The notes under the pieces were generated by a model. The model saw nothing but the letters and a program-made list of their open reading frames with translations, was not told where the DNA came from and did not search any database. The position numbers and the translations under genes are program-made. A stretch of DNA of 64,000 nt from Ornithinimicrobium faecis. Lineage in GTDB: Bacteria > Actinomycetota > Actinomycetes > Actinomycetales > Dermatophilaceae. The stretch lies in assembly GCF_023923225.1 (NCBI RefSeq), contig NZ_CP099489.1:3844001-3908000 (forward strand). The letters are read 5' to 3'. Positions 10,271 to 37,811 of the stretch are shown here, piece after piece. Each line of letters starts with the position of its first letter. Positions within the stretch are counted from its first letter, which is position 1.

Positions 10271-10370
10271 CGTGCACCCAGACAGGCGACGTCATCTCGC
10301 CCTGCGCATCGCTGCAGGTCAGCGACGTCCCGCTCGCTCACAGCAGTGACGTCGCCTGCCTTGGTGCACG
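10271..10370 (+). repeat. 100-bp palindromic dispersed repeat, copy A
   Basis: This 100-bp element begins CGTGCACCCAGACAGGCGAC and ends with the near-complement (GTCGCCTGCC then TTGGTGCACG), giving 24-bp imperfect terminal inverted repeats. It aligns without a gap to copy C (37712-37811) and to the reverse complement of copy B (29193-29292). A central motif CTGCAGGTCAG at positions 42-52 is shared. It fills most of the gap between the ABC exporter and the small gene at 10401, ending 30 nt before that start. Confidence 0.85.
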
Positions 10371-10400
10371 CCGACGCTCCGTGCACCTACGCTTGCGTCC

Positions 10401-10835
10401 ATGAGTTCCCTGCAGCAGACCCTGCTCGAGCCCGCCCGTCGACCCGCCGTCGTGAAGACCCTGGTCGCGGTCGTCGACGCCGAGGTGGCGAGCAAATCCG
10501 GCATCAGCGGTCGCATCATCAAGACCGGCTATGCGGCCGTCACCAAAGTGTCCGACGGGTTCGTGGCCAAGGCGGTCAACAAGTTGCTGCCCGGCTTCAG
10601 TGCCGCGCTGGACCCGTTCTGGCAGGAGCGGGGAGACCGCGCCTTCGCCGACACCCTGGTCGCCCGACAGGATGAGGCCGCCGAGGCCCTGCTCGCCGTC
10701 ACCGACAGCAACGTGGCCGGCTCAAGCAACGGCGTGGTCAAGAAGGTTTACGGCTCGCTGCGCGGCAAGGCCAAGGACAACGTCATCGCCGCCCTCCCCC
10801 GCGTCGGCGCCGCGATCGAGAGCCACGCCGCCTGA
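10401..10835 (+). CDS. conserved small actinobacterial protein (DUF6918-like)
   Basis: A 144-residue soluble protein, MSSLQQTLLEPARRPAVVKT. It is largely helical by composition, with no signal peptide or membrane segment; Lys/Arg-rich parts include KKVYGSLRGKAKDN near residue 115. From memory it matches a conserved actinobacterial family of unknown function (DUF6918); I cannot confirm the number. No ribosome-binding site precedes the ATG. Instead TACGCT (10388-10393) ends 7 nt before it, so the transcript is probably leaderless. It stands alone between the 100-bp repeat and a convergent ABC unit. Function unknown. Confidence 0.75.
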   Translation: MSSLQQTLLEPARRPAVVKTLVAVVDAEVASKSGISGRIIKTGYAAVTKVSDGFVAKAVNKLLPGFSAALDPFWQERGDRAFADTLVARQDEAAEALLAVTDSNVAGSSNGVVKKVYGSLRGKAKDNVIAALPRVGAAIESHAA

Positions 10836-10929
10836 GTGAGCCGATTGCGGAAGGGATAGCGGGGTGCGCCGGGCCCACGGGATCGCGGGCCGGCGGGCAC
10901 GAGCACGACCACGGCGCCGATGCGAGAGC

Positions 10930-11679
10930 TCAGTCGGTCCGCCGACGCAGGGTGAACGTCCCGAGGGCGAGCACCACAACCGCGATGCCCACCACGATCA
11001 GCAGGTCGGTCCAGGTCCCGCTGGCAACCTGCCCGTCGACACCGGCCTGCACGCCCTGCATGGCGTTGATCGCATAGGTCAGCGGGAGGAAATCAGAGAT
11101 CGCCTGGGCGGCGCCCGGCATGTTTTCGCGCGGGATGAACAACCCGCACAGCAGGAGCTGGGGAAAGACCAGTGCAGGCATGAACTGCACAGCCTGGAAC
11201 TCGGTGCGGGCAAAGGCGGAGACGGCCAGGCCCAGCGCTGTGCCGAGGAAGGAGTCGGCCAGCGCCACCAGCAGCAGCGCCCAGATCGGGCCGCCCACCT
11301 CCATGCCGAGGATGCCAACACCGAGGCCGATCACCAGGGCCGACTGCACGAAACACACGGCCAGCAGGGCGAGCGCATAGCCGAGGAGGATGTCGGCCCG
11401 GCCGGTGGGCATGGCCAGCATCCGCTCCAGGGTCCCCGCTGTGCGCTCGCGCAGCATCGTGACCGACGTGACGATGAACATGACGGTGAAGGGCATGAAG
11501 GCGATCAGCGCCGGGCCGAAACTGTTGATGATGTTGCCGCCGGCCACCTCGGAGAAGACCCACCACAGCAGCAGGAGCACCAGGCACGGGACGAGCAGGA
11601 GCAGGGCGATGGTCCGCGGGTCCCGACGCAACTGGTGCAGAACCCGGCGGGCCACGGCCAGGGTGATGCGCGGGGTCAC
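10930..11679 (-). CDS. ABC-2 type transporter permease (DrrB-like)
   Basis: A 249-residue membrane protein with the six-helix ABC-2 plan: helices at about 25-45, 58-78, 105-130, 140-165, 170-190 and 220-240. The motif region PALVFPQLLLCGLFIPRENMP is typical of the ABC2_membrane signature. The start overlaps the ATPase stop by 4 nt. ABC-2 exporters of this type move antibiotics, lipids or polysaccharides outward. No biosynthetic genes sit nearby, so self-resistance or lipid export cannot be told apart. Confidence 0.9.
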   Translation of the reverse strand: MTPRITLAVARRVLHQLRRDPRTIALLLLVPCLVLLLLWWVFSEVAGGNIINSFGPALIAFMPFTVMFIVTSVTMLRERTAGTLERMLAMPTGRADILLGYALALLAVCFVQSALVIGLGVGILGMEVGGPIWALLLVALADSFLGTALGLAVSAFARTEFQAVQFMPALVFPQLLLCGLFIPRENMPGAAQAISDFLPLTYAINAMQGVQAGVDGQVASGTWTDLLIVVGIAVVVLALGTFTLRRRTD

Positions 11680-12392
11680 GCCGCAGCCTCGTCGATGAGG
11701 ACCAGGAAGGCAGCCTCGACGCTGTCGGCGCCGGTGCGCTCGAGCAGCTCGGCCGGAGTCCCGGTCGCCATCACCTCGCCCTCGCGCAGGAGCGCGATCC
11801 GGTCACAGCGCTCCGCCTCGTCCATCACGTGGGTGGACACCAGCACGCCCGCCCCTCGGGAGGCGAGGTCACCGAAGGTGGCCCACAGCGAGCGCCGGAG
11901 CACCGGGTCAAGGCCGACGGTGGGCTCGTCCAGCACCAGGAGCGGGGGGTCGTTGAGCAGCGCCGTGGCCAGGGAGACGCGCGACTGCTGACCACCGGAC
12001 ATCGTGCCCACCACCTGGTCAGCCGCGTGCGCGAGATCGACCGTTGCCAGGGCAGCCCGCACCTCGGCCGTGCCCACTCCCAGGATGGCGGCAAAGAACT
12101 CCAGGTTCTCCCGGGCGGTCAGATCGTGATAGATCGACGCTGCCTGGGTCACATAGCCCACGCGGCCTCGCACCCCCGGACTCCCGGCCTCCTCGCCAAG
12201 CACCCGCAACGACCCCTGCACGCCGCTCTGCACCCCCACGATGGAGCGCATCAGCGTCGATTTGCCGCCCCCGGAGGGCCCGACAACACCGACCAGCTCA
12301 CCCGCACCAACGCTCAGATCAACACCGTGGAGGACCTCACGACCACCGCGCGTGACCCGCAGGTCCGTGACCTCGACAACGTGCTGCTCCAC
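11676..12392 (-). CDS. ABC transporter ATP-binding protein (DrrA-like)
   Basis: A 238-residue ATPase. I chose the GTG at 12392 because GAGGAGGAG lies 4 nt upstream; an upstream ATG (12440) would add 16 basic residues without a ribosome site. Walker A GPSGGGKST (about 38), Q-loop GYVTQAASIY, signature MSGGQQSRVSLATALL, Walker B LLVLDEPTVGLD and H-loop VLVSTHVMDEAERCD are all present. The MDEAERCDR run is characteristic of drug-resistance (DrrA/CcmA) ATPases. It forms a two-gene unit with the ABC-2 permease. Confidence 0.92.
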   Translation of the reverse strand: MEQHVVEVTDLRVTRGGREVLHGVDLSVGAGELVGVVGPSGGGKSTLMRSIVGVQSGVQGSLRVLGEEAGSPGVRGRVGYVTQAASIYHDLTARENLEFFAAILGVGTAEVRAALATVDLAHAADQVVGTMSGGQQSRVSLATALLNDPPLLVLDEPTVGLDPVLRRSLWATFGDLASRGAGVLVSTHVMDEAERCDRIALLREGEVMATGTPAELLERTGADSVEAAFLVLIDEAAA

Positions 12393-12501
12393 GGCGCTCC
12401 TCCTCGGCCGTCGGCGCTGCTGACGCACCACCGGTGCCACTGCACCACGCTAGACCCGCGGGCACCGACCGCGCGACCCCACGCCCAGCAGGCGAGCGCG
12501 G

Positions 12502-13185
12502 TCAGCGACCCGCCCCAGGACCCCCGCTGCTCGACCGGTTCTGCCAGGTGCAGATGCAGATCTCGTTGCCCTCGACATCGGCGAGGACCCAGAACGCCGG
12601 TGCGCGCCGGTCCGAGACCAGTCGTCCACCCGCCGCCAGCGCGGCAGCAAGCCGCTCCTCGGCGACATCGTGCGGCACGGTGATGTCGAAGTGGATGCGG
12701 TTGCGGTCAGTGCGCGGCGGATCCATCTCCTGGAACCAGAGGCTGGGGAGGTGACCATCCGGGTCGAGCAGGTCACCGCGAGCATTCGCCTGCAGCCCGA
12801 GCACGGCCTGCCAGAACGGCCGGATCGCGTCAGCATCCACCGTGTCGATCGCGAGCTCGAGCGAGGAGACCAGCTCCGGGCGGGCCGTCGCGCCTGCCTC
12901 GTCCGCCAGCTCGCTGACCACCCTCGCCAGGTCGAGGTCGCGTTGGGTCACGCCGTCGACCGACTCCGTGTGGGTGCGGACCACGACGTGGTCGGAGCGC
13001 AGGTCCAGGGCGGGGTGGTGGTGCAGCCGGTGGCCCGCCGCGACGATGGCCGTCGCGAGGGCGGCCCCTGCGGCGGGGGTGCCGGTGTCGAACCGCGCGA
13101 CCAGGACACCGAGCAAGAAGCGCCAGTCCCCCATCCCCTCGGCGTGCATCGCGTCATAGGGCGTCACCACGAGATCCTCAGCCAT
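12502..13185 (-). CDS. carbinolamine dehydratase-like domain fused to VOC domain
   Basis: A 227-residue two-domain protein. Residues about 8-100 carry the pterin-4a-carbinolamine dehydratase pattern: GDWRFLLGVLVARFDTG, then HRLHHHPALDL (about 52-62), then THTESVDGVTQRDLDLA. Residues about 110-220 form a vicinal-oxygen-chelate (glyoxalase/bleomycin-resistance) fold with NRIHFDITVPHD and AFWVLADVEGNEICICTW. I started at the internal ATG at 13185 (MAEDLVV), next to GGTGAG. Such fusions exist in Actinobacteria but no biochemical role is established. It is transcribed alone between DUF2332 and the ABC pair. Confidence 0.8.
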   Translation of the reverse strand: MAEDLVVTPYDAMHAEGMGDWRFLLGVLVARFDTGTPAAGAALATAIVAAGHRLHHHPALDLRSDHVVVRTHTESVDGVTQRDLDLARVVSELADEAGATARPELVSSLELAIDTVDADAIRPFWQAVLGLQANARGDLLDPDGHLPSLWFQEMDPPRTDRNRIHFDITVPHDVAEERLAAALAAGGRLVSDRRAPAFWVLADVEGNEICICTWQNRSSSGGPGAGR

Positions 13186-13230
13186 CTCACCAGCGTGGCA
13201 CACGGTCCCGACAGCGCGCCATGCTGACCG

Positions 13231-14340
13231 TCAGCGCGTGGGGTCGCCCCAGCGCACCGGGACACCGTGCGGCGGAGCCTCACCGAGCAGACACTCAGTG
13301 CCCCCGGGCCAGGTGGTGGCCGCGACGACGAAGCGGTGCGGCGCGCCTGGCGCGAGGCGACGCGGCTCGAAGGCGAGGTGCGTCAGCGGCCGATCGGGTG
13401 TGGCGGCGTCACCCAGCGTCGTGAGCCGGGCGAGCATGCGCTGCTGCTCCTCGAGCGACACGTATTGCCACATCACCGAGTGCCACACGACGGTGTGCTG
13501 GCCCTCCACCAGCTCCAGTCGGTCCAGGAAGTCGCCACCGCCCGCCCGCTCGAGACGCACGGCGTGCTCCGCGGCGAGGGACAGGGCGCCGCGCAGCCGG
13601 TCGAGACGATGCGTCTGGTCCGGCCACACACAGCTGAGCAGTGACAGCGCACCCTCCTGGGAGCGTGCGTCGATCGGCGCGAGGTCGCAGCCCAGTCGTT
13701 CGACCACCTCGACCCCCTCCGGTATGCCGAGGGGCCGGCTCTCCCAGGCAGGGTCCAGCACGACGGTGGCTGGGCGCGCACCCCCTGGTGTGACTCCTTC
13801 TGTGCTGCCGCCACCGGCTGGCCGCGGCCACTGTCCGCCGTCCGCAGCGAGGTAGGTGAAGTGATCGGCCAGCAGGTTCAACCCCGCCGACGCACCGATC
13901 TCCACGAGCCGGACCGGCAGGTCCGGTCGCTGTGCGCGGGCGAGCACCTGCAGCAGACCACCGAACAGGGCCGCGGAGCGACCGACCTCGTTGGTCTGTG
14001 GCGGCGAAGCCAGTCCGGCGCGGATGAGCTCCTGGTGCTCCTCCAGAACCTCGCGGAAGGCAGGCCAAGCGGCCGCAGCATCCCCGTCGCCGCCGACGCT
14101 TGGATAGTGGGCCGCGAGCGCCGGTGCTCGCTCGGTCAGCACGAGACGGTGCACGGCTGCCATCAGTCGCAGGGCCAGGGCCGAGGGGCCAGGTGCGTCC
14201 TCGTGTCCCGCCAGCACCGCGGCAGCCGGCCCACCCGCCGCGACATCGTCGGCCACCTGCTCGAGCAGGTGGGCGTAGAACGGTGAGCCCAGGCTCTCGC
14301 AGGCACCGGCCTGTGCCCGGATCAGCTCAACCTGGCGCAA
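13231..14340 (-). CDS. DUF2332 family protein
   Basis: A 369-residue protein of the DUF2332 family. Landmarks are the N-terminal helix region (CESLGSPFYAHLLEQVADDV), the central VEIGASAGLNLLADHFTY, which resembles a Rossmann glycine-rich strand of methyltransferases, and TVVWHSVMWQYVSLEEQQRM. The probable start is TTG at 14340, which lies inside the last codons of mfd (stop at 14327), so translation is coupled to mfd. The family is uncharacterised; the methyltransferase-like motif is an observation, not proof of activity. Confidence 0.82.
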   Translation of the reverse strand: MRQVELIRAQAGACESLGSPFYAHLLEQVADDVAAGGPAAAVLAGHEDAPGPSALALRLMAAVHRLVLTERAPALAAHYPSVGGDGDAAAAWPAFREVLEEHQELIRAGLASPPQTNEVGRSAALFGGLLQVLARAQRPDLPVRLVEIGASAGLNLLADHFTYLAADGGQWPRPAGGGSTEGVTPGGARPATVVLDPAWESRPLGIPEGVEVVERLGCDLAPIDARSQEGALSLLSCVWPDQTHRLDRLRGALSLAAEHAVRLERAGGGDFLDRLELVEGQHTVVWHSVMWQYVSLEEQQRMLARLTTLGDAATPDRPLTHLAFEPRRLAPGAPHRFVVAATTWPGGTECLLGEAPPHGVPVRWGDPTR

Positions 14341-17300
14341 CGGCGCTCATGTCGTCCAGCAGGACGTGCCTGATGAGTGCGCTCGCCCAGTCCAGGATCT
14401 CCTTGTCGCGCAACACCTTCCCACCCACGCGGGCGGTCTTGGGCACGGGCACGAGGATGGTGCGCGTCGCGGCCTTGAGGATGGTGCCCGGGAACAGCCG
14501 GTTGAGCCGCAACTGCTGGCTCTCGCGCAGCTCGACCGGCCCGAAGCGGATGGTCGAGCCCTGCAACGAGATGTCGCTGATCCCCGCGCTGCGAGCCAGG
14601 GTGCGCAGTCGGGCGACCTCGAGCAGCGTCTGGACGGGCACCGGCGGGGCGCCATAGCGGTCGACCAGCTCCGCCTCGATCTCGGCCAGCTCGACCTCGT
14701 CGGTCACCTTGGCCAACTTGGTGTAGGCCTCCAGACGCAGTCGCTCACCGGGGATGTAGGCATGGGGCAGGTGCGCGTCGACGGGCAGCTCGATCTTGAT
14801 CTCCGTGGGGGTCTCGTCCTTCTCGCCCTTGAAGTTGGCGACCGCCTCGCCGACCAACCGGATGTAGAGGTCGAAACCGACGCCCTCGATGTGGCCGGAC
14901 TGCTCACCACCGAGCAGGTTGCCGGCGCCGCGGATCTCCAGGTCCTTCATCGCCACGGCCGTGCCGGCCCCCAGGTCGGTGTTGGCCGCGATCGTCTGCA
15001 GTCGGTCGACCGCGGTCTCGGTCAGCGGCTTCTCCGGCGGATACAGGAAATAGGCGTAGGCCCGCTCCCGCCCGCGGCCCACGCGGCCCCGCAGCTGGTG
15101 CAACTGGGACAGCCCGAACTGGTCGGCGCGGTCCACGATCAGGGTGTTGGCGTTGGAGATGTCCAGGCCGGTCTCCACGATCGTGGTGCACACCATCACA
15201 TCGAAACTGCCCTCCCAGAAGTCGACGACGACCTGCTCGAGCTGGTGCTCCCCCATCTGCCCGTGCGCGGTGGCCACCCGGGCCTCGGGGACCAGGTCGC
15301 GCAGCCGCGCGGCGACCTTCTCGATCGAGGTCACCTTGTTGTGCACAAAGAAGACCTGCCCGTCCCGCAGCAGCTCGCGCCGGATCGCGGCGCCGATCTG
15401 CTTCTCGTCATAGCCGCCGACGAAGGTGAGCACCGGGTGCCGCTCCTCCGGGGGTGTGGCCAGCGTCGACATCTCGCGGATGCCGGTGATGGCCATCTCC
15501 AGCGTGCGCGGGATCGGCGTGGCCGACATGGCCAGCACATCGACATTGGTGCGCATCGCCTTGAGCTGCTCCTTGTGCTCCACGCCGAAGCGCTGCTCCT
15601 CATCGATGACGACCAGCCCCAGGTCCTTGAAGGTCACCGAGGTGGACAACAGTCGGTGGGTGCCGATGACCAGGTCCACGCTGCCGTCGGCCAGGCCCTT
15701 GATGACCTCCCGCGCCTCCTTGTCGGACTGGAAGCGGGACAACGCCTTCACCACGACCGGGAACTGGGCATAGCGCTCGGTGAAGGTCTGGAAGTGCTGC
15801 TGCACCAACAGGGTGGTCGGCACCAGCACGGCCACCTGCTTGCCGTCCTGGATGGCCTTGAAGGCCGCGCGGACCGCGATCTCGGTCTTGCCATAGCCCA
15901 CGTCGCCACTGATCAGCCGGTCCATCGGGACCGCCTTCTCCATGTCGGCCTTGACCTCGTCGATGCTGGAGAGCTGGTCGGTCGTCTCGACGAACGCAAA
16001 GGCGTCCTCGAGCTCGCGCTGCCACGGGGTGTCCGGGCCGAACGCGTGGCCCTGGGTGGCCATCCGGGCGCTGTAGAGCCGGATCAGCTCGGAGGCGATC
16101 TGCCGGACATACTTGCGGGCGCGCGACTTGGTCTTCTGCCAGTCGGCACCACCGAGTCGGTTCAGCGTCGGGGACTCTCCGCCAACGTATTTGGTGATCT
16201 GGTCCAGCTGATCGGTCGGCACATAGAGCCGGTCGGCCGGTTGCCCGCGCTTCGCGGAGGCGTACTCCAGCACGAGATACTCCCGCACCGCCCCCTGCAC
16301 CTGGCGCTGGGCCATCTCGACGAACTTGCCGACGCCGTGCTGCTCGTGGACCACGTGATCACCCGGCCGCAGCTGCAGGGGATCGACCTGCGCCCGCCGG
16401 CGCGACGGCATACGCCGCATGTCCTTGGTCGAGCCTCCGGTGCTCACCGAGCCGGTCAGGTCGGTCTCGCCGACCACCACCAGGTGGGCGCCGGGCAGCA
16501 CAAAACCGCGCCCCACCGAGCCGGTCGTGATCTGCACGACCTCGGGCACGAGCCGCTCGAGGTCGGGGACGAGCCGGTGAGGGACGTCCTGCTCGGCCAG
16601 CACCTCGCTGACCCGGCGGGCCAGACCCGGCCCCTCGAGCGAGAGCACCACGTGCTGGTCATCGGCGAGCCAGCGGCGCAACGCTGTCGCGATCGCCTCG
16701 GCGTCGCTGCGGAAGGCCTCGACGGGGGACGACTCGACGGTGATCCGGCGGGCCACCACGTCGTCAGCGGCGTCGTCCTCGACAAACTCCGCGAGCTCCT
16801 CGTCACCGGCGAACGCAGTCATGGTCCACCAGTCGCGACCCCGCTCCAGCGCCCGGGCACGCAGGTCACCCAGGGACCAGTAGGACGCGGTGCCGAGCAC
16901 GTCCTGCAGGTCGACCGGCACCACATTGCCGGCCACGGCGTTGGCCCAACTCGCACCGAGGAACTCCAGGCTGGTCTCGACCAGATCGTGCGCCCGGGTC
17001 GAGATCCGCTCCGGGTCGAGCAGGACGACGCGCGTGCCCTCCGCGAGGACGTCGGGCAGCGTCTCCATCGAGTCCACCAGCGCCGGGGTCAGCGACTCCA
17101 TGCCCTCCACGGCGATGCCCTCGGCCACCTTGCCGAGCAGGTCCGCCACACCGGGCAACTGCTCAGCCAGCTCGGCGGCTCGCTCACGCACCTGGTCGGT
17201 CAGCAGCAGCTCGCGGCACGGCGGGGCCCACAACCCGCCCTCGGCGATCTCCAGCGAGCGCTGGTCGGCCACCTTGAACCACCGGACCTCCTCGATCGTG

Positions 17301-17929: not shown

Positions 17930-18115
17930 GAGGGGCCCTCTCTGCGGCAACATGGGCAGTGTGGTGGCGGCCGGCGACACACCTGCCGACAGCACAAACG
18001 ACCCCGATCTGGGAACTGAGCGGGGTTTCTGCCAGTCTAAAGGCCACAACCGACAGGGAGACTGATGCGGCCGGGGGCGCTTGCGCTGCCGGGCCGGGGA
18101 CAGGAAGATCACATC

Positions 18116-20194: not shown

Positions 20195-20314
20195 CGTTTC
20201 ACCTCGCCGATCGGCTTGACTGGACGGAACCATTCGACGGCGCTGACCGTCAATACACAGGAACTGGCACGACGACCTCGCACCACACCTGTCCCACGAA
20301 AGGACACTTGGACC

Positions 20315-21031: not shown

Positions 21032-21077
21032 CCCGCTCCGCACCACGGTCGGGCACGCCCTGACCAGCAGCACCCCT

Positions 21078-21109
21078 GCGGGCCCGCCGGAAGTTTCCGG
21101 TGGGCCCGC
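21078..21109 (+). terminator. strong hairpin between pspA and second TPM gene
   Basis: GCGGGCCCGCCGGAA, a GT loop, and TTCCGGTGGGCCCGC form a 15-bp stem with one G-T pair. There is no U-tract, as usual in Actinobacteria. It lies 47 nt after the pspA stop and 40 nt before the second TPM gene, so it likely lowers read-through between them. Confidence 0.65.
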
Positions 21110-21148
21110 GGTCGGTCTCGAACACTCCACCGGGGGAAGGACTCACCC

Positions 21149-23071: not shown

Positions 23072-23095
23072 CCCGGGCCGCTCCCGTGAGCGACT

Positions 23096-23567: not shown

Positions 23568-23580
23568 TTCAGTGCGGCAG

Positions 23581-25097: not shown

Positions 25098-25127
25098 AGT
25101 CTAGGGCAGCCGCACCCCGCCGACCAA
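25098..25127 (-). promoter_or_regulatory. candidate promoter for rplY-pth
   Basis: On the minus strand, TTGGTC (25127-25122) and TAGACT (25103-25098) stand 18 bp apart. The predicted start site would leave a leader of about 150 nt before the rplY ATG. No terminator-like or riboswitch structure was evident in that leader. Confidence 0.5.
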
Positions 25128-25157
25128 CTCGCTTTTGCGCTCACACCTGACCCGCCC

Positions 25158-25697: not shown

Positions 25698-25724
25698 CAG
25701 CGGAGGGGCGGGTCGAGACGACCG

Positions 25725-28285: not shown

Positions 28286-28539
28286 GCGAAGTCGCTCCCA
28301 TGTCTCGGGGACTGAACAGTGGTGGCGGCCCACGGGGTCACCCTGGTGGATGCTACCCGTCTCCTGGGGGTGGTGTCTCCCGGCCCCGCCTCCAGGGAAT
28401 CTTTCCGGCCCGATCGGCGTTGAAACAGTTGTCGGTCCGCGACGGGACCGCGCTCCGTGAGGAGCACGATGTGCGTCGCCCCGGGCCTGACGTTGTTTAT
28501 CGAAATCTGACGTTCTGCGTCGGAGAAGGGTCACAGTCA

Positions 28540-29061
28540 ATGCAGTTCAACACCGGTCAGCTCCTCATCCACCCCCACCACGGCCCGGCACGTGTCGAGG
28601 GCACGATGACGCGGGTCGTCGGCGGCACCGAGCGCAAGTATGTGACCCTGCGCGTGCAACGCAGCGACCTGACGGTCTCGCTGCCGGCCGACACCGCCGA
28701 GGAGGCCGGCATCCGGCTCATCCTCTCGGGTGAGCAGTTGCAGGAGGTGCTCGACGAGCTCAGGGCACCCAGCGTGCCGTTCGACCGGCAGTTCTCCCGC
28801 CGCATGAAGAACCAGCAGGACCGGTTGCTCCAGGGCGACCTCCGGGTCACAGCTGGCGTGGTGCGCGACCTGATCCGACGAGACCGGGCCGACGGCGTGT
28901 CGCCCGCGGAGAAGGACCTGCTCAAGCGTGCCAAGGAGCCGTTGCTCGGCGAACTCGTCGAGGCGCTCCGCGTCACCGAGGAGCGGGCCGAGGAGCTGGT
29001 TCTCGGCGCCGTCACCGGCGAGGACATCCCCACCCCCGCCGAGCTGGCGATCGCCGGCTGA
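28540..29061 (+). CDS. carD: CarD/CdnL-family RNA polymerase-binding regulator
   Basis: A 173-residue CarD-type protein. I chose the ATG at 28540, with GGAGAAGGG 9 nt upstream. The N-terminal Tudor-like RNA-polymerase domain is MQFNTGQLLIHPHHGPARVEG, then YVTLRVQRSDLTVSLPADTAEEAGIR. The helical DNA-binding part follows (about 75-173). CarD stabilises open promoter complexes and is often essential. The divergent partner is glmU; the 254 nt between them hold the promoters of both. It is unlike the Mycobacterium setting, where carD is next to ispD. It could be a second, diverged CarD paralogue. Confidence 0.88.
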   Translation: MQFNTGQLLIHPHHGPARVEGTMTRVVGGTERKYVTLRVQRSDLTVSLPADTAEEAGIRLILSGEQLQEVLDELRAPSVPFDRQFSRRMKNQQDRLLQGDLRVTAGVVRDLIRRDRADGVSPAEKDLLKRAKEPLLGELVEALRVTEERAEELVLGAVTGEDIPTPAELAIAG

Positions 29062-29087
29062 CGCGCCCCACCCGCCCCGCGAGCCGC

Positions 29088-29185
29088 CCCCACTCGCCGG
29101 CCCCGGGGCACATTCACACCACCCACCCCGCGCCGGCCCCACTCGCCGGCCCCGGCGCACGTTCACACCACCCGCCCCGCGCGGC
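29088..29185. repeat. 49-bp direct repeat, two copies
   Basis: Two near-identical 49-bp units (29088-29136 and 29137-29185) begin CCCCACTCGCCGGCCCCGG and contain a TTCACACCACCC core. A partial third copy of the end (CACCCGCCCCGCG) precedes them. The array directly follows carD and abuts the 100-bp repeat copy B. Confidence 0.7.
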
Positions 29186-29192
29186 GCCCGGC

Positions 29193-29292
29193 CGTGCATT
29201 CAAACAGGAAACGTCACGCTCGATCCCCGGGCGCAGCCTGCTGACCTGCAGGTTTGCCCTGGAGCCGACGACGTTACCTGTTTGAATGTGCG
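29193..29292 (-). repeat. 100-bp palindromic dispersed repeat, copy B
   Basis: This copy is inverted relative to copies A and C. It begins CGTGCATTCAAACAGGAAAC and ends ACGTTACCTG then TTTGAATGTGCG. The reverse complement aligns base for base over 100 positions with the others, including the central CTGCAGGTCAG. The outermost 13 bases of the two ends pair better here than in A or C. It ends 32 nt before the tRNA-Gln 3' end. Confidence 0.85.
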
Positions 29293-29324
29293 GGGCCGCG
29301 CCCAGATGGCGCGCCCACAGCAAG

Positions 29325-29403
29325 CTCCCCGGGAAGGAATCGAACCTTCGTCGCTAATCCTGATTCAAAGTCAGGCGGCCCCTGCCAGCAGAGCAACCGG
29401 GGA
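29325..29403 (-). tRNA. tRNA-Gln (anticodon TTG), long variable region
   Basis: Folding by eye gives acceptor TCCCCGG/CCGGGGA, D-arm GCTC/GGGC with TGG in the loop, anticodon stem CCTGA/TCAGG around CTTTGAA (anticodon TTG) and T-arm GAAGG-TTCGATT-CCTTC. The discriminator is G and CCA is not encoded. The length is 79 nt: the region between anticodon and T stems is 9 nt rather than about 5, and one extra base follows the D stem. The position near glmU and a TetR gene matches the tRNA-Gln locus of Mycobacterium. Confidence 0.85.
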
Positions 29404-29486
29404 ACACCCGATGCACACGCACCGGACCGGACAAGGTTAGGACAGATCCGGCCCGGGACGACACCCGCGGTCGTTGACAAGGCAGA

Positions 29487-30149
29487 ATGGGCCCCGTGAG
29501 CCGCCCCGATCCCAAGTTGACTGTGCCCGCTGCGCGCCATCGAATGACTGGCCCGCAGCGGCGTGAGCAGTTGATCTCAATCGGGCGGGCACTCTTCTCC
29601 GAGAAGGGGTTCGAGGGGACCACGGTCGAGGAGATCGCGGCGAATGCCGAGGTGTCCAAGCCGGTGATCTATGAGCACTTCGGGGGCAAGGAGGGGCTCT
29701 ATGCCGTGGTCGTCGACCGCGAGATCCAGGCCCTGCTCAATGCGATCACCAACGCCCTGTCCGAGCCGGGCCACCCGCGAGCACTGCTCGAGCGCGCTGC
29801 CCTCTCGCTGCTGGACTACATCGAGAACTCCACCGATGGGTTCCGGATCCTGGTGCGAGACAGCCCACCTGGGCAGTCCACCGGCTCCTTCGCCTCGCTG
29901 ATCAGCGACGTCGCCAGCCAGGTCGAGCACATCCTCGCCGCCGAGTTCAAGCGTCAGCGGCTCGATCCCAAGATGGCGCCGCTGTATGCACAGATGCTGG
30001 TCGGCATGGTCGCCACCCCCGGTGGCTGGTGGTTGGACTCCCGCAAGATCAAGAAGGAGGATGTGGCCTCCCACGTCGTCAATCTGGCTTGGAACGGGCT
30101 GTCCGGCCTGGAGTCCAAGCCGAGCCTGCGCCTGATCAACCCGCGGTAG
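29487..30149 (+). CDS. TetR/AcrR family regulator
   Basis: A 220-residue TetR protein. The N-terminal helix-turn-helix is RREQLISIGRALFSEKGFEGTTVEEIAANAEVSKPVIYEHFGGKEGLYAVVV (about 18-70); the C-terminal ligand domain includes DSPPGQSTGSFASLISDVASQV. It corresponds in position and form to Rv1019 of Mycobacterium, which lies between glmU and mfd; here mfd has moved away. The last codons overlap the end of padR on the other strand by 14 nt. The target genes are unknown. Confidence 0.93.
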   Translation: MGPVSRPDPKLTVPAARHRMTGPQRREQLISIGRALFSEKGFEGTTVEEIAANAEVSKPVIYEHFGGKEGLYAVVVDREIQALLNAITNALSEPGHPRALLERAALSLLDYIENSTDGFRILVRDSPPGQSTGSFASLISDVASQVEHILAAEFKRQRLDPKMAPLYAQMLVGMVATPGGWWLDSRKIKKEDVASHVVNLAWNGLSGLESKPSLRLINPR

Positions 30150-30777
30150 ACCCGGGGTCAGCGCTACGCCCAGCGTTGGCGATATCCGCGGGGTCGCCGT
30201 CACCCCCGGGGTCGCCGTCACCCCTGGCCTCGACGTCACCCCCAAGAACGACCTCGCCCCCAACGTGGTCGCGCGCCCAGCGCGCCCACTGCGCGGTGGC
30301 GCGGAAACTGAGGATGCCGAACTGGGCCGTGATCCCGAGCGGCCCGCCTGACGCGCTGCCCGTCCGTTCCTGCAGGGCCGCGAACTCAGCCTCAAGGTGC
30401 TCAACCTGCGCCACTGCACCAGCCTCGGTCTGCCGGAGGACCTCGAGTGCGTCGTCAGGCTCGAGCGCCGGGAGGAGAAAGAGTCGCAGCGCGTGCTCAT
30501 TCTTGACTCCGCCGGTTGAGGCCGGGGCGGCCATCAACCAGGCACGCAGGGCGGCCAGCCCCTCCTTCGTGCAGCGGTACGTGACGCGCCCCCGCGCCCC
30601 CCGATCGACAACCTCGACCAGCCCCTCCAGATCGAGACGGCGCAACTCGGGATAGATCTGGCTGTGCTTGGCATCCCAGGCGTAGGCGCCAATGACATCC
30701 TCGAAACGTCCCGTCAGGTCATAGCCACTGCTCGGACGGTCCAGCAGCAGGCCGAGAATCGCGTATCGGAGGGCCAC
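30136..30777 (-). CDS. PadR family transcriptional repressor
   Basis: A 213-residue PadR protein. The winged helix is MALRYAILGLLLDRPSSGYDLTGRF, then HSQIYPELRRLDLEGLVE and GRVTYRCTKEGLAALRAWL. The C-terminal helical half (about 90-160) is of the PadR_C type. The tail (165-213) repeats GDPGGDGDP-like residues. The start is GTG at 30777; TAGGCT (30789-30784) ends 6 nt before it, so the mRNA is probably leaderless. A textbook PadR operator lies just upstream (30801-30824). Confidence 0.94.
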   Translation of the reverse strand: MALRYAILGLLLDRPSSGYDLTGRFEDVIGAYAWDAKHSQIYPELRRLDLEGLVEVVDRGARGRVTYRCTKEGLAALRAWLMAAPASTGGVKNEHALRLFLLPALEPDDALEVLRQTEAGAVAQVEHLEAEFAALQERTGSASGGPLGITAQFGILSFRATAQWARWARDHVGGEVVLGGDVEARGDGDPGGDGDPADIANAGRSADPGSTAG

Positions 30778-30800
30778 GTCAGGAGCCTATATGACGATCT

Positions 30801-30824
30801 TGACATGTCGAACTCGACATGTCA
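30801..30824. promoter_or_regulatory. PadR operator with ATGT-N8-ACAT core
   Basis: Two 11-bp arms, TGACATGTCGA and its exact complement, flank AC. The core ATGT-N8-ACAT is the known PadR consensus. A perfect -35 TTGACA (30800-30805) and the -10 CAGTCT (30823-30828) for the rightward gene are 17 bp apart, so the operator fills the spacer; +1 would be the ATG at 30835. The leftward padR -10 (30784-30789) lies 11 bp away. Repressor binding should block the membrane gene and probably padR itself. Confidence 0.85.
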
Positions 30825-30834
30825 GTCTCATCGT

Positions 30835-31590
30835 ATGGGGTCATCGACGACTGTCACCGACAGCGAGGTCACCGACAGCGAGGAGATGTCGTCCCGACGC
30901 TCCTCCTCGTGGGTCGGCGCACTGGCCGGTGAGCTCGCCCTCGATGTCGGGCTGTCCCTCGCGGCGTTCTGGCTCGCCATCGCCGCAGGGTGGGGCACAG
31001 TGGGCGCCATCCTGGCCGCTGGCACGGTCGCGGTGGCGCGGGCTGTCTGGACAGCTGTCATCCGCGGCACCCTCGACACCTCGCTGCTGCTGGTCGTGCT
31101 GGGTTTCCTGACCTCCCTGATCCTCGCGCTCGTGAGCGGAGACGCCAGGGTGCTGCTGCTGAAGGGGTCGGTCGGGCTCGCCCTGTTCGGGGTGGTGGCC
31201 ACCGCGAGCCTGGTGTGGGGTCGGCCGCTGCTGTTCTGGCTGGTGCGGCGCTTCGTGGCGCCTGGATCTGAGGGACGTCACCAGTGGGAGGAGCTGTGGC
31301 ACGGGAGCACACCGTTCCGCTGGCTGTATCGCCGGCTCACCGTCGTGTGGGCGCTGGTCTACCTCCTGGCAGCCGCCGGTCATGTGACGGCGGTCCTGAC
31401 CCTGCCCGTGGAGGTGGCCGCCCCCTGGTTGCGGGCCGCCACACCCCTGCTGAGCGTCTCGATGATTGCCTGGACGGCCTGGTTCTCCGCTCGCGCCGAA
31501 GGTCGCCTGGAGGGTCCTCTGCTGGATGAAGCCGAGGGAGCCTCGTCGGTGGAAGCCTCGCGGGTGGAGACCGAGTCGGCCTCGTCCTAG
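30835..31590 (+). CDS. septation protein A-like / VC0807-type membrane protein
   Basis: A 251-residue protein; ATG 30835 (MGSSTTVTDSEVTDSEE) is chosen because it lies at the predicted transcription start. After a polar N-terminus it has six hydrophobic stretches (about 28-50, 55-70, 80-100, 108-130, 165-190, 195-215) and an acidic C-terminus. The pattern WTAVIRGTLDTSLLLVVLGFLTSLILALVSGDARVLLLKGSVG resembles the VC0807/intracellular septation A family. A PadR-family target in this position suggests transport or envelope defence, but no substrate is known. Its stop shares the CTAG at 31587-31590 with the convergent marR. Confidence 0.75.
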   Translation: MGSSTTVTDSEVTDSEEMSSRRSSSWVGALAGELALDVGLSLAAFWLAIAAGWGTVGAILAAGTVAVARAVWTAVIRGTLDTSLLLVVLGFLTSLILALVSGDARVLLLKGSVGLALFGVVATASLVWGRPLLFWLVRRFVAPGSEGRHQWEELWHGSTPFRWLYRRLTVVWALVYLLAAAGHVTAVLTLPVEVAAPWLRAATPLLSVSMIAWTAWFSARAEGRLEGPLLDEAEGASSVEASRVETESASS

Positions 31591-32099
31591 TCCTGCTCGA
31601 AGGGTGTCAGCAGGCGGCGGAGCAGGGCGGCGAGCTCGCCACGCTCCTGCGGCGACAGGCCGATCAGCAGGTCGCGCTCATCGTCGACGAGACCGGCCAG
31701 GGCTCCGTCGACCGCTTCGCGGCCCTGGGCGGTGAGCGTGATGAGCACCGTGCGGCGGTCGCTCGGTGACGCGGTGCGCGCCACCATGCCGTGCGAGACC
31801 AGCCGGTCGATCCGGTTGGTCATGGTGCCGCTGGTCACCAGCGTCTCGCGGACGAGCTCCCCGGCCGACAACTGATAGGGCTCCCCCGACCGGCGCAGCG
31901 CGGACAGCACGTCAAACTCCCAGGCCACCAGTCCCCACTGGTCAAACGCGTGCCGCCGTGCCAGGTCCAGGTGGCGAGCCAGCCGACTCACCCGCGAGAG
32001 CACCTCGAGGGGTGAGACATCCAGGTCCGGGCGCTCGCGCCGCCAGGCCGCGACGATGCCGTCAACCTGATCGGGAGCGGTGCGCTCGGTGTCAGCCAT
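31587..32099 (-). CDS. MarR family transcriptional regulator
   Basis: A 170-residue MarR protein with a winged helix (LVAWEFDVLSALRRSGEPYQLSAGELVRETLVTSGTMTNRIDRLVSHGMVARTASPSDRRTVLITLT, about 50-115) and flanking dimerisation helices. The start at 32099 has no ribosome site; TACAGT (32111-32106) ends 6 nt before it, within a palindrome. It lies just upstream of a repeat array and the EamA exporter on the same strand order (EamA is upstream in transcription, marR downstream), so a MarR-exporter link is likely but unproved. Confidence 0.93.
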   Translation of the reverse strand: MADTERTAPDQVDGIVAAWRRERPDLDVSPLEVLSRVSRLARHLDLARRHAFDQWGLVAWEFDVLSALRRSGEPYQLSAGELVRETLVTSGTMTNRIDRLVSHGMVARTASPSDRRTVLITLTAQGREAVDGALAGLVDDERDLLIGLSPQERGELAALLRRLLTPFEQD

Positions 32100-32102
32100 G
32101 GC

Positions 32103-32116
32103 CTCACTGTAGTGAG
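32103..32116. promoter_or_regulatory. palindrome over the marR -10 box
   Basis: CTCACT-GT-AGTGAG is a perfect 14-bp palindrome that contains the marR -10 hexamer (TACAGT on the minus strand, 32111-32106). It ends 4 nt before the start codon. Its place fits MarR autorepression. The inference rests on position and symmetry only. Confidence 0.55.
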
Positions 32117-32133
32117 CCTCAAGATTCTTGGCG

Positions 32134-32230
32134 TCAAGACACCGAAGCGTGCGTCAAGACACCGGGCGGGCCGCAAGACACTGGGCTGGGGTCAAGACAC
32201 TGGGCTGGGGTCAAGACACCGAAGCGCGCC
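32134..32230. repeat. 19-20 bp tandem repeat, five copies
   Basis: Five units start at 32134, 32154, 32173, 32192 and 32211, each beginning TCAAGACAC (GCAAGACAC in the third). Units 3 and 4 are nearly identical (CAAGACACTGGGCTGGGG). The array lies between the EamA stop and the marR promoter. The first three bases of unit 5 are the EamA stop codon, so the array has entered the end of that gene. On the minus strand each unit carries TGTCTTGAC, which resembles a -35 box. Confidence 0.88.
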
Positions 32231-33146
32231 CCCGGCGGAGCACCGGGACGTTGGTGACGATGACTCCGACGATCACGATCAGCCCGCCGACGAGCTGGGC
32301 GAGTGAGTAGGGCTGACCGGCCAGGAGCGTGAAGGCGGCGACGAACACGGTGATCAGGTTGAGGAAGACTCCCGCACTCCCCGCGGGCAGATCGCTCAGC
32401 GCACGACTCCACAGCAGATAGGCCAGCACCGACGGGAAGACGGCGATGAACAGCACCGCACCCGCGGCCTGCGGGGTCATCGGCAGGCTCGGCCCTCCGG
32501 TGGCCAGACTGACCGGAGCAACCACGACCACAGTGATCGCCGCCTGCACCGCGACAGCAGTCACCGGCGGCACACGCAGACGGCCCTGCCCGGCGCGACC
32601 GATGATCGTGTAGGCCGTCCAGGCCACGACGGCCCCCAGCATGACCAGCTCACCCGCCCCGAACCGGGCACCGGCCAGGACCCCCAGGTCGCCGCGGCTG
32701 AGCACAACGAGGGCTCCCGCCATCGCGATGATCACCCCGAGCAGCGTCAGAGGACGGAGCCGCTCGCGCAGCGTGAGCGCCGCCACCAGGACGATCAGCG
32801 CGGGGTTGGTGGCGTTGACCAGCGAGGCACTCAGCGCCGTCGTGTGCTCCAGCGCCACATAAACCAGCAGCGGATAGCCCAGCAGCCCGGTCAGGCTCAG
32901 TGCCACCAACCAGCGCCACTGCGAGAGCACCTCACGCCAGGCCGGCCGTTCCAGCCGCTGGGCCAGCAGCACCAGCAACGGGAGGGCCACCAGCCAGCGG
33001 AGCAGGACCAGGTCGAGCGGGGTGATGCTCTGCACGGCGGCAGCACCCACGAGGTAGTTGCCTGCCCAGCACACGGTGGCGCCCAGCAGTGCCAGCACGG
33101 CGACCAGACGCCCGTGCCGGTGGCGGCTGGGCAGGGTGTGCGGCAC
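32211..33146 (-). CDS. EamA/DMT-family exporter
   Basis: A 311-residue protein with ten membrane helices in two EamA halves (about 12-140 and 155-300), for example ATVCWAGNYLVGAAAVQSITPLDLVLLRWLVALPLLVL and the repeat VLAYLLWSRALSDLPAGSAGVFLNLITVFVAAF. The family exports amino acids, nucleosides or other metabolites. GTG start at 33146, four nt after the ABC-F stop, so it is in the rsmA-ispE-ABC-F operon. The C-terminus (LRRGRASVS) is encoded by the last unit of a tandem repeat. Confidence 0.93.
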   Translation of the reverse strand: MPHTLPSRHRHGRLVAVLALLGATVCWAGNYLVGAAAVQSITPLDLVLLRWLVALPLLVLLAQRLERPAWREVLSQWRWLVALSLTGLLGYPLLVYVALEHTTALSASLVNATNPALIVLVAALTLRERLRPLTLLGVIIAMAGALVVLSRGDLGVLAGARFGAGELVMLGAVVAWTAYTIIGRAGQGRLRVPPVTAVAVQAAITVVVVAPVSLATGGPSLPMTPQAAGAVLFIAVFPSVLAYLLWSRALSDLPAGSAGVFLNLITVFVAAFTLLAGQPYSLAQLVGGLIVIVGVIVTNVPVLRRGRASVS

Positions 33147-33150
33147 CTGG

Positions 33151-35004
<1,854 letters not shown>

Positions 35005-35008
35005 CCGC

Positions 35009-35971
35009 TCAGCCGGTGAAGTTCTGTGGGCCGGTCGGCGAGACGGACTGGATCACCTGAGCACCGGCAACGGGGCCGGTGGCGCGACGGATGTCACCGG
35101 CCGGACCGCGAGCGGCCAGGCCGACGGACAGATCAATCGCCTCGGCCTGCGTGCCCACCAGGAAGACCACGGTCGGTCCGGAGCCGGAGACGATCGCCCC
35201 CTGTGCCCCCAGCGTGGTGCCCGCCTCGAGCACCTCACTGAGCACCGGTCGCAGGGAGATCGCGGCCTCCTGCAGGTCGTTGCGCAGCGCGGCACCCACC
35301 TCGCCCGGGTGCATCGTGCGCAACGCAGCCACCAACGCACCCGACGGTGTCGGGTCACCCACCTCGATCCCGGCGGCCTCACGCAGTCGGTCGCACTCGG
35401 CATACACCTGCGGGGTGGACAGGCCCGCCTCCGGGCTCACCCACAGGACCCAGTGCAACTCTCCACGGGCCAGGACCGGGGCCAGGCGCTCCCCACGCCC
35501 GGAGCCGATCGCGGTGCCGCCGTGCAGCAGGAAGGGCACGTCCGAGCCCAGCTTGGCCGCGATCGGCTCGAGCTCGTCGCGGGTCAGCTGCAGCTCCCAC
35601 AGCGCCTCGCAGGCGACCAGCGCCGCCGCCGCGTCCGCCGACCCACCGGCCATGCCGCCAGCGACCGGGATGTTCTTGTCGATGCTCAGCGCGACCGCGC
35701 CCTCGACACCGAAGCGCCGGGCGAGCATCTTGGCGGCCTTGAGTGCCAGGTTGGTCCCGTTGGCGGGCACCCCCTCGGCCGTGGCGCCGGTGACCTCGAC
35801 GGACCACGACTCGGCCTCGATCGCGGTGACATAGTCATAGATGCCCACGGCGTGATAGATCGTGGCCAGCTCGTGATAGCTGTCCTCACGGAGCGGCCCC
35901 ACCACCAGCTCCAGGTTGATTTTCCCGGGGACACGGACGGTGACGCCCCGGGACTCGACGGCCAGACTCAT
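35009..35971 (-). CDS. ispE: 4-diphosphocytidyl-2-C-methyl-D-erythritol kinase
   Basis: A 320-residue GHMP kinase that phosphorylates CDP-methylerythritol in the MEP isoprenoid pathway. Motifs: VRVPGKINLELVVGPLREDSYHEL at the N-terminus, the ATP-binding VAGGMAGGSADAAAALVA (about 100), and IVSGSGPTVVFLV near the end. It lies 9 nt after rsmA and 4 nt before the ABC-F gene, the rsmA-ispE order common to Actinobacteria. Confidence 0.97.
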   Translation of the reverse strand: MSLAVESRGVTVRVPGKINLELVVGPLREDSYHELATIYHAVGIYDYVTAIEAESWSVEVTGATAEGVPANGTNLALKAAKMLARRFGVEGAVALSIDKNIPVAGGMAGGSADAAAALVACEALWELQLTRDELEPIAAKLGSDVPFLLHGGTAIGSGRGERLAPVLARGELHWVLWVSPEAGLSTPQVYAECDRLREAAGIEVGDPTPSGALVAALRTMHPGEVGAALRNDLQEAAISLRPVLSEVLEAGTTLGAQGAIVSGSGPTVVFLVGTQAEAIDLSVGLAARGPAGDIRRATGPVAGAQVIQSVSPTGPQNFTG

Positions 35972-35980
35972 GCCGCCACC

Positions 35981-36847
35981 CTATGCGTCGGCATCCCGGG
36001 CAGCAGCGATGGCCGCGAACTCCTCGATGGTCAGCCGCTCACCGCGAGCGCTCGGATCCACCCCCGCAGCCCGCAACACCTGCTCGGCTGCGGCGGGGGA
36101 GCCGGCCCATCCGGCCAGGGCGGCCCGCAGGGTCTTGCGGCGCTGGGCGAAGGCAGCGTCGATCACCGCAAACACCTCGCGCCGGGAGGCAGTGGTGACC
36201 GGCGGGTCGCGGCGGACCATGCGCACCAACCCGGAGTCGACGTTGGGCGCTGGCCAGAAGACGTTGCGGCCGACCTTCCCCGCCGGTGACACCTCCGCAT
36301 ACCAGGCTGCTTTGACGCTGGGCACGCCATAGACCCGGTTGCCCGGAGGAGCCGCCAACCGGTCGGCGACCTCGAGCTGCACCATCACCAGCACCCGCTC
36401 CAGACTGGGCAGCATCTCCAACAGGTGGAGCACGACGGGCACGGCCACGTTGTAGGGCAGGTTGGCAACCAGCGCGGTGGGCTGCGGGTCCGCGAGCGCG
36501 GTCACAGTCAGGGCGTCCTGGTGCAGGACGGTGAGCCGATCCGCACGGTCGGGGGCGAGCTCGGCGACGGTCCTGGGGAGCTGCTCGGCCAGGACCGGGT
36601 CGATCTCGACGGCGACGACCCGGTCGACGGTGTGCAGCAGGGCGAGGGTGAGGCTGCCCAGACCGGGCCCGACCTCGACCACCACGTCGTCTGGTCCAAC
36701 ACCGGCCTGGCGCACAATCTTGCGGACCGTGTTGGCGTCGATGACGAAGTTCTGGCCCCAGTTCTTGGTGGGGCGCACTCCCAACCGGCCGGCCAGCTCG
36801 CGGATCTGCGCAGGGCCGAGCAACTGGCCTTCAGGGTGTGGCTCCAT
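35981..36847 (-). CDS. rsmA: 16S rRNA dimethyladenosine transferase RsmA (KsgA)
   Basis: A 288-residue enzyme that dimethylates A1518/A1519 of 16S rRNA during 30S maturation. Motifs: [19 protein letters not shown]-binding [15 protein letters not shown], acidic VAVEIDP and catalytic [11 protein letters not shown]. The ATG at 36847 has no ribosome site; TAGGCT (36861-36856) ends 8 nt before it, so the leader is only one or two nt. It heads the operon with ispE, ABC-F and EamA. The rpfB gene that usually precedes it is absent. Confidence 0.97.
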
Positions 36848-36952
36848 GATCGGTCAGCCTAGCCGCCGCCAGGGCCGGTCTGGTGCGGGCGCCGTCGCGC
36901 AACAGGCCCCGCCGAGGGAATGCTCCACGGTTGCAACTACGTTGTAGGTAGG

Positions 36953-36969
36953 ACAGGCTCGAAGCCTGT
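36953..36969. promoter_or_regulatory. inverted repeat in the sodA leader
   Basis: ACAGGCT-CGA-AGCCTGT has perfect 7-bp arms with a 3-nt centre. It lies 29 nt before the sodA start and just after a TTGCAA/TAGGAC-like region (36930-36953). It could be an operator for a metal- or redox-responsive repressor, or a small mRNA hairpin. The binding protein is unknown. Confidence 0.4.
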
Positions 36970-36998
36970 GGACATCGACAACTGAGGAGCTGTTTGCT

Positions 36999-37628
36999 GT
37001 GGCTGACTATGCACTGCCCGAACTTCCCTACGACTACGGCGCACTCGCCCCGCACATCTCTGGCGAGATCATGGAGTTGCACCACTCCAAGCACCACAAC
37101 GCCTACGTCACCGGCGCCAACACCGCCCTCGAGCAGCTGGCCGAGTCCCGCGACAAGGACTCCTTCGGCAACGTGAACATGCTGTCCAAGAACCTCGCGT
37201 TCAACCTGGCCGGCCACGTGAACCACTCGGTCTTCTGGCCGAACATGTCCCCGGACGGCGGCGACAAGCCGGTCGGTGAGCTCGCTGCCGCGATCGACGA
37301 CAACTTCGGCTCCTTCGACGCCTTCCGCGCGCACTTCACCGCCAACGCGCTGGGCATCCAGGGCTCCGGCTGGTCGATCCTGGCCTGGGACACCCTGGGC
37401 CAGAAGCTCATCCTGTGCCAGCTCTATGACCACCAGGGCAACCTGCCGGCCGGCATCGTGCCGCTGCTGATGCTGGACATGTGGGAGCACGCGTTCTACC
37501 TGCAGTACAAGAACGTCAAGGCCGACTACGTCACCGCCTGGTGGAATGTCGCCAACTGGGCCGACGTGCAGGAGCGCTTCGCGGCAGCCCGGACCGCCAC
37601 CAACGGTCTGATCGTCCCCAAGGCCTGA
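36999..37628 (+). CDS. sodA: superoxide dismutase (Fe/Mn family)
   Basis: A 209-residue SOD. GTG start at 36999 has GAGGAG 9 nt upstream. Metal ligands are visible: His28 in [13 protein letters not shown], His in GHVNHSVFW (about 76), and Asp/His in [10 protein letters not shown] (about 165-169). [10 protein letters not shown] near residue 125 is more like the Mn than the Fe form, though the metal cannot be fixed from this. Tyr codons are nearly all TAC, unlike many neighbours, which fits high expression. It lies where rpfB would stand between rsmA and tatD. Confidence 0.96.
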
Positions 37629-37640
37629 TCACAGCAACTC

Positions 37641-37692
37641 TGGTCAGCGCTCGCTGACCACGGCCTCGGCCCTGGTGCATCGCACCGGGGCC
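37641..37692 (+). terminator. double hairpin terminator after sodA
   Basis: TGGTCAGC-GCTC-GCTGACCA (37641-37660) is a perfect 8-bp stem. A second GC-rich hairpin follows (37668-37692) with arms GGCCCTGGTGC and GCACCGGGGCC. They start 13 nt after the sodA stop and precede the 100-bp repeat copy C. They probably end sodA transcription. Confidence 0.7.
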
Positions 37693-37711
37693 GTTGTCAT
37701 GCCCGGATGGT

Positions 37712-37811
37712 CGAGCATTCAGACAGGCGACGTCAAACCCTCGGTGACATCGCTGCTGGTCAGGGCGTTGCGACTCGGCGACCACCGCGACGTTGCCTGT
37801 CCGGGTGCACG
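37712..37811 (+). repeat. 100-bp palindromic dispersed repeat, copy C
   Basis: It begins CGAGCATTCAGACAGGCGAC and ends GACGTTGCCTG then TCCGGGTGCACG. It aligns with copy A in the same orientation over 100 positions without gaps; positions 38-51 (ATCGCTGCTGGTCA) match copy A with one change. It sits in the convergent gap between sodA and tatD, ending 31 nt before the tatD stop. Confidence 0.85.

Follow-up and report, generated by a model that had tools for sequence, protein, structure and literature searches.

A family of 100-bp palindromic elements of fixed geometry in Ornithinimicrobium faecis: candidate DNA docking sites past gene 3' ends

Hairpins or the debris of transposons are the usual explanations for small dispersed palindromes, and the systems described so far provide the context for the family presented here, a set of 100-bp elements first noticed as three intergenic copies in a 64,000-nucleotide stretch of the Ornithinimicrobium faecis genome (contig NZ_CP099489.1, positions 3,844,001 to 3,908,000; hereafter the window). 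In the parts of PMC3116915 drawn on here, the REPINs of Pseudomonas fluorescens and E. coli are given preferred spacings of 71 and 110 bp, and compensatory changes are described as common. The likeness, as far as these parts and those of PMC8049555 extend, lies in two conserved inverted ends, a variable spacer, preferred spacings and an extragenic location, as well as in a mainly vertical persistence with a copy number that varies between strains, both reported for REPINs. However, no Y1 transposase such as the RAYT of REPINs was detected in 31 genomes of the genus; moreover, the element shows no compensation in its arms or interior, carries a conserved asymmetric core at its center and leaves almost no lone arms.

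The Correia (NEMIS) elements of Neisseria measure ~105-155 bp with 24-bp terminal inverted repeats, and their long form, almost exclusively intergenic, has an internal site for the host protein IHF (portions of PMC2229807). Terminal repeats of this length together with an internal host-factor site recall the plan of our element; in contrast, Correia elements have TA ends and a target duplication, neither of which was seen here, and our element is not A+T-rich, has interiors that are unrelated between copies and has arms that differ between species. RUP and ERIC are likewise small repeats, ~107 and 127 bp long and present in many copies, but their terminal inverted repeats are short (9 and 7 bp) with TA ends (same portions of PMC2229807), and the ends of RUP resemble IS630-Spn1, whereas no such partner of the element was found by arm scan. 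The CGTC-tagged repetitive extragenic palindromes (REPs) are, in the main text of PMC3733652, apparently without a dedicated transposase and predominantly arranged as head-to-head dimers. The CGTC at the inner arm ends of most O. faecis and O. murale copies is reminiscent of them; however, each such REP is a palindrome of 20-40 bp, and CGTC is missing at that place from the type II arms of two relatives (G006 and G008), described below, and from those of another relative (G016). None of the words actinobacteria, Streptomyces and Mycobacterium appears in that main text.

We regard the element as a small dispersed palindromic repeat of a new variant, claiming membership neither in the REPINs nor in the miniature inverted-repeat transposable elements (MITEs); no published report of it was recognised in the CC-licensed PMC text covered. 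The explanation that we favor, with a confidence only a shade above even and by sequence comparison, is that each copy would be a cis-acting DNA docking site of fixed geometry, maintained by selection, and neither an RNA nor a recently active transposon.

The three window copies were confirmed in position, in orientation and in their gapless alignment over 100 columns, as were the 24-bp inverted arms and the conserved middle word. All three copies agree at 50 of the 100 columns, whereas 2000 shuffles gave 7.9 such columns on average and never more than 20. The elements and their parts, with scores from a covariance model, R1, are as follows.

10271..10370, + strand: element copy 1 (100 bp); R1 92 bits, E 2.3e-19
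10271..10294, + strand: copy 1 left arm, 24 bp (arm alignment)
10314..10322, + strand: copy 1 central asymmetric core, GCAGGTCAG
10347..10370, - strand: copy 1 right arm, inverted (arm alignment)
29193..29292, - strand: element copy 2 (100 bp); R1 88.1 bits, E 2.3e-18
29269..29292, - strand: copy 2 left arm (arm alignment)
29241..29249, - strand: copy 2 central core, GCAGGTCAG
29193..29216, + strand: copy 2 right arm, inverted (arm alignment)
37712..37811, + strand: element copy 3 (100 bp); R1 92.3 bits, E 2.0e-19
37712..37735, + strand: copy 3 left arm (arm alignment)
37755..37763, + strand: copy 3 central core, GCTGGTCAG
37788..37811, - strand: copy 3 right arm, inverted (arm alignment)

A first pattern search returned window copies 2 and 3 and seven more copies, with no match to the reversed control pattern. 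R1, which was built on ten copies, then placed the element at 47 sites (94 rows over both strands) in the complete 4.62 Mb O. faecis genome, with E-values from 4.8e-21 to 2.7e-9; as 150 of the 15,245 first-look candidates were scored, 47 is formally a lower bound. The family is thus real, as predicted, but smaller than the well over a hundred copies per genome that had been extrapolated from the window, with a mean spacing of 98 kb. Forty-five of the copies are 100 bp long, one is 99 bp and one 101 bp. Their positions fit a uniform spread (Kolmogorov-Smirnov p 0.44).

The arms occupy positions 1-24 and 77-100 in inverted orientation, with the O. faecis consensus CGTGCAYYCARACMGGCRACGTCR. The profiles of the left and right arms correlate at r = 0.96, and the correlation is lost when one is shifted by 1 or 2 positions; both arms share one degenerate profile and vary independently. 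The core spans positions 36-60 and includes GGTCA at 47-51, where position 47 is A in 1 of 45 copies and positions 48-51 are invariant. There seem to be two core sub-types among the O. faecis copies, one in which CAAA goes with GNCCTG and one in which CATC goes with GCGTTG/GTCG, a tendency in the counts over positions 36-60. Mean identity between copies is 0.79 in the arms, 0.68 at core positions 37-60, and 0.35 and 0.33 (0.34 together) in the free segments at positions 25-35 and 61-76, where independent draws from the column frequencies would give 0.35 and the pooled base composition 0.29.

Despite these free letters the geometry is rigid. The arm-core and core-arm spacings are 35 and 38 in 45 of the 46 O. 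faecis copies that were parsed and 34 and 38 in the remaining one; a single 100-bp copy with a changed right arm was left unparsed and out of this count. The same 35/38 spacing is found in all nine 100-bp copies of sister species (7/7 in O. murale, 1/1 in G008 and 1/1 in G006). A second, longer class, of which nine elements were examined (seven in G006, one in G008 and one in O. murale), has arms of the form CTGGCAGTTCG (type II) in G006 and G008 or of the O. murale type in the O. murale element (G019 C4:43837). In all nine the core lies 11 bp farther from the left arm, about one turn of the DNA helix, and the distance to the right arm is the same in seven and 1 bp greater in two; extending the arms outward to match the 100-bp type gives a total length of 111-112 bp. 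A slightly longer type II arm pattern matched one further element in G008 and two further in G006.

Applied to 58 genomes, R1 detected copies in four, O. faecis included. R2, a model to which O. murale arms had been added, returned the 47 O. faecis copies together with copies in O. murale (G019), G006 and G008. All nine sister-species 100-bp copies (seven in O. murale, one in G008 and one in G006) share flanking genes with an O. faecis copy and are inherited in place. Element length is identical in eight of these nine pairs and 1 bp apart in the ninth; for this count the start of one O. murale copy was reset by 2 bp, which makes it 100 bp long. In six O. faecis/O. murale pairs, all of 100 bp, the interior identity is 0.22, 0.26, 0.33, 0.33, 0.41 and 0.48, no closer than between unrelated O. 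faecis copies (means 0.33-0.39); the seventh pair (101 and 100 bp) was excluded from this comparison. The closer pairs have interior identities of 0.74 (G008) and 0.63 (G006). The distance from element to alignable flank differs in 15 of 15 comparisons, by amounts between 4 bp and over 1 kb (approximate, from BLAST ends), with three flanks giving no comparison. Lengths thus stay equal while interiors are unlike and flanks shift, from which it follows that the letters have been replaced and the length kept. Since this has happened at the same loci in two species, selection on geometry is separable here from selection on sequence or pairing.

The arms also differ between species. ACCGGAATCGT is present in the left arm of all seven 100-bp O. 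murale copies and has T where each of the 45 O. faecis left arms has A; the core word GCWGGTCAG is unchanged in kind. Such a change could reflect co-evolution with a predicted trans-acting reader of the arms.

Gene orientation, assigned with a crude G+C-phase gene caller, places 28 of the 47 copies between convergent genes; of the others, 16 have tandem and 3 divergent neighbors, compared to 26, 132 and 43 among 201 background pairs from the same flanks. The convergent excess (28/47 against 26/201) has a Fisher p of 1.6e-10, and the divergent deficit, measured against background gaps of at least 100 bp (3/47 against 27/62), a p of 9.9e-6. No copy lies within a called gene; a single copy reaches 25 bp into the end of one. 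In the window, copy 1 is flanked by the genes of an ABC transporter and a DUF6918 protein, both on one strand, copy 2 lies between the converging CarD-domain gene (+, ending at 29061) and tRNA-Gln (-, 29324-29403), and copy 3 between the converging genes of a superoxide dismutase (+) and a TatD-type DNase (-). The caller scored copy 2 as tandem, an error that counts against, not toward, the convergent location. A distance of 30-32 nt to the neighboring gene had also been remarked upon; it was measured as 30, 31 and 31 nt (for copy 2, to tRNA-Gln) but is a coincidence and not a general rule, since the distance to the nearest gene ranges across the genome from the 25-bp overlap to 280 bp.

Taken as a docking site, the element would work as follows. 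A predicted sequence-specific protein would bind both inverted 24-bp arms, each arm being a separate copy of one degenerate motif, and a second protein, or a second domain, would read the asymmetric center (GCWGGTCAG and flanking bases). The DNA between arms and core would serve only as a ruler, free in its letters and fixed in its length, because arms and core must keep helical phase if bending or looping of the DNA is to bring them together in one complex. Sites of this kind would stand past gene 3' ends, many of them inherited in place, with arms that co-evolve with the arm-reading protein of each lineage. The original prediction had left a mobile element, a structured RNA and a protein-binding site as candidates; the arm profile, the fixed spacing and the alternative spacing of about one turn favor the last of these three, with binding itself a predicted property. 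The family is probably of MITE or REPIN descent, from a REPIN- or Correia-like miniature repeat; the host would have retained the transposase-like protein that binds it, and may benefit from it.

Several observations weigh against a docking site retained by selection. None of the nine longer-class elements shares a locus with an O. faecis copy, a 100-bp copy was detected in O. murale (in an assembly that is 75% complete) at no more than 7 of the 47 O. faecis loci, and most O. faecis loci are without a copy in the relatives; gain and loss must therefore be frequent. G014, G018 and G023, three relatives that seem about as close to O. faecis as those with copies (81-82% identical in the best synteny match), have no significant copy, with best R2 E-values of 0.56, 0.40 and 0.08. 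For copies 2 and 3 of the window no counterpart could be detected at the orthologous places that were examined: three relatives were inspected for copy 2, and for copy 3 six relatives keep the genes with no element seen. At these places, divergence is too great for an insertion point to be located. In G016, pieces of 100-102 bp have arms akin to those of the element (CGTGCACTCAAACCGGCACTTT) but no GGTCAG core, with E-values from 5e-7 to 3e-5. The tandem arrays of G006, together with duplicated arm pieces in O. faecis, hint at recombination or mobility. An earlier and cruder gene calling had placed copy 954041 inside an open reading frame. Finally, some single copies fold strongly (z of -6.3, -5.5, -1.0 and -10.5 in four copies), as they can because inverted arms pair by construction.

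A broader version of the docking-site proposal, which we put forward tentatively and think rather less probable than its core, is a genome-wide network of three-part sites held for long at their loci past 3' ends, whose arms turn over lineage by lineage with a fast-evolving protein retained by the host. If this is true, bacteria would have their own equivalent of the site networks of domesticated transposases, one that does without RAYT and in which selection acts on length and helical phase but leaves the intervening letters free; its role would be to organise DNA or supercoiling where transcripts converge. If the arm reader were found, O. faecis, O. murale and type II would form a natural series in which protein and site co-evolve in pairs, and would allow a test of whether REPIN-like persistence without RAYT needs a host-beneficial DNA-bending complex.

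The alternative that survives best, although we consider it doubtful, is an ordinary MITE: the 24-bp arms would be the terminal inverted repeats of a non-autonomous transposon, cut by a transposase supplied in trans. Convergent locations would then be tolerated insertions, and the fixed length a requirement of the transpososome. Such an origin would account for the terminal inverted repeats, for 47 dispersed copies patchy among close relatives, for a longer class at loci without O. faecis copies, for the avoidance of promoters and genes, and for the tandem copies in G006 and the element-gene-element arrangements. However, no signal of a target-site duplication, a check proposed together with the mobile reading, was detected for lengths 2-10 over the 47 copies, although old copies may have lost theirs and a duplicated CG dinucleotide would be indistinguishable from the arm ends. 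Nor was a transposon or transposase gene with the same ends recognised: the arm pattern with at most one mismatch returned, beyond the 47 copies, one lone perfect arm (815265) and one weak match (854566). Next to the lone arm the GGTCAG word is ~6 bp nearer than normal and no right arm was seen; for both reasons it is probably a relic, which leaves one relic against 47 complete copies. Only two pairs of copies look recent (interior identity 0.78 and 0.74, one pair 920 bp apart), and the nine sister copies are inherited in place. The mobile, REP/MITE-like suggestion agrees with the inverted ends but finds no support in target duplication or a Y1 transposase; a MITE-like origin or past mobility may still apply. 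A tyrosine-recombinase site, with core half-sites GCAGG/CCTGC around 7 bp and additional arm sites, is unlikely, because there would be 47 such sites in one genome.

A structured RNA, or a bidirectional terminator or processing hairpin at the 3' ends of convergent transcripts, is a quite improbable alternative. The elements do lie past stop codons and have long hairpin potential, but the pairing statistics, calculated on the 45 copies of exactly 100 bp (the other two being excluded for length), give it no support. The compensatory changes looked for in the 24-bp arms are absent: Watson-Crick pairing is 0.780 against 0.771 +/- 0.008 after shuffling, with 0.780 reached in 87 of 500 shuffles in which right arms were re-dealt, and the same columns would permit a maximum of 0.907. 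At the eight variable arm pairs it is 0.536 against 0.507 shuffled (reached by 89 of 1000) and 0.850 possible. Mutual information revealed no helix in the interior, where the best pair, 27-66, is paired in 0.71 of copies against 0.45 expected and has no stacked neighbor among the 45 strongest pairs listed. Chimeras with swapped halves fold like real copies (-49.3 against -47.9 to -50.1 kcal/mol), Rfam has no match in the window or in six element-bearing loci, and no terminator-like site (a G+C-rich hairpin with a T run) was called at copies 2 and 3, the copies covered by the scan of window positions 28500-38500. The structured-RNA reading of the original prediction thus finds no support in the arms, the chimeras or Rfam.

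Still a little less probable are the operators of an ordinary transcription-factor regulon. Two inverted half-sites with a single degenerate profile are what such operators look like, but the copies are not enriched in promoter regions, as the divergent deficit given above indicates, and the scanned neighbors have no obvious common function. These were 33 distinct proteins of ~94, the first ten compared with NCBIfam, three of those again and the rest with Pfam; their functions are mixed, six have no match, no transposase is among them, and they include three glyoxalase-fold proteins, one TetR-type and one CarD-type DNA-binding protein. The poorest account, genuine REPINs mobilised by a RAYT (Y1) transposase, shares the plan of inverted conserved ends, a length-sensitive variable spacer and vertical persistence (parts of PMC3116915 and PMC8049555) but is hardly credible, as the predicted linked tyrosine transposase is refuted as far as Pfam Y1_Tnp can see (no match in 31 genus genomes, the complete O. 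faecis genome included, with matches in 5 of 14 named control genomes) and the compensatory changes reported for REPINs are lacking from the arms.

Beyond the genomes already described, few sequences resemble the element. In a GTDB-wide pattern scan the matches were seven O. murale stretches, one from O. cavernae and one from Micromonospora; the last lacks inverted arms and is read as chance. The outer-arm pattern, run on 89 family genomes (86 of other genera), gave 32 O. faecis pairs and one other match (G474) with no core word in the letters shown; the reversed control also gave one match (G475). The type II arm pattern was absent from 119 family genomes, a draw without G006 and G008 and hence without a positive control. 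Phage, plasmid and viral collections held no match to the patterns or to the one copy tried. Six of the weaker R2 matches, up to E 1, were inspected and none was accepted. A decayed relic at the copy 3 locus of G014, plausible on visual inspection, was considered and rejected, since 45 of 500 shuffles and 8 of 46 other copies score as well.

Some further observations concern individual copies. No orientation bias of the kind seen in translocase-guiding sites was found (13 + and 8 - in one half of the contig, 13 + and 13 - in the other), with contig halves standing in for replichores. In G016, a hemerythrin-domain gene stands between two 100-102-bp palindromes (C1:411492-412550) that have related arms but an interior unlike that of the element; similarly, the O. 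faecis copies 2652463 and 2653383 have between them a gene whose product contains a CAAX-protease-like domain. In G006, type II elements form tandem arrays of two or three at C1:51670-52046, 756414-756653 and 2100820-2101280; the surroundings of the arrays are partly repeated, with extra partial arms, and the first array contains a short tandem repeat of an arm piece. The right arm of 146066 (-) is tandemly duplicated with a 23-bp period directly outside the element, and 1497554 (+) has a partial duplicate of its left arm outside. Beside the lone arm 815265 is an inverted repeat that we take to be CIRCE-like. When 1763612 (+) is compared with G008, ~60 bp to the left of the element appear by eye to be unusually conserved and the other intergenic DNA does not. 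Additionally, another repeat of ~130 bp, 81-82% identical between its two occurrences and in opposite orientation, abuts 339358 (+) and 714430 (-) and extends outward from them.

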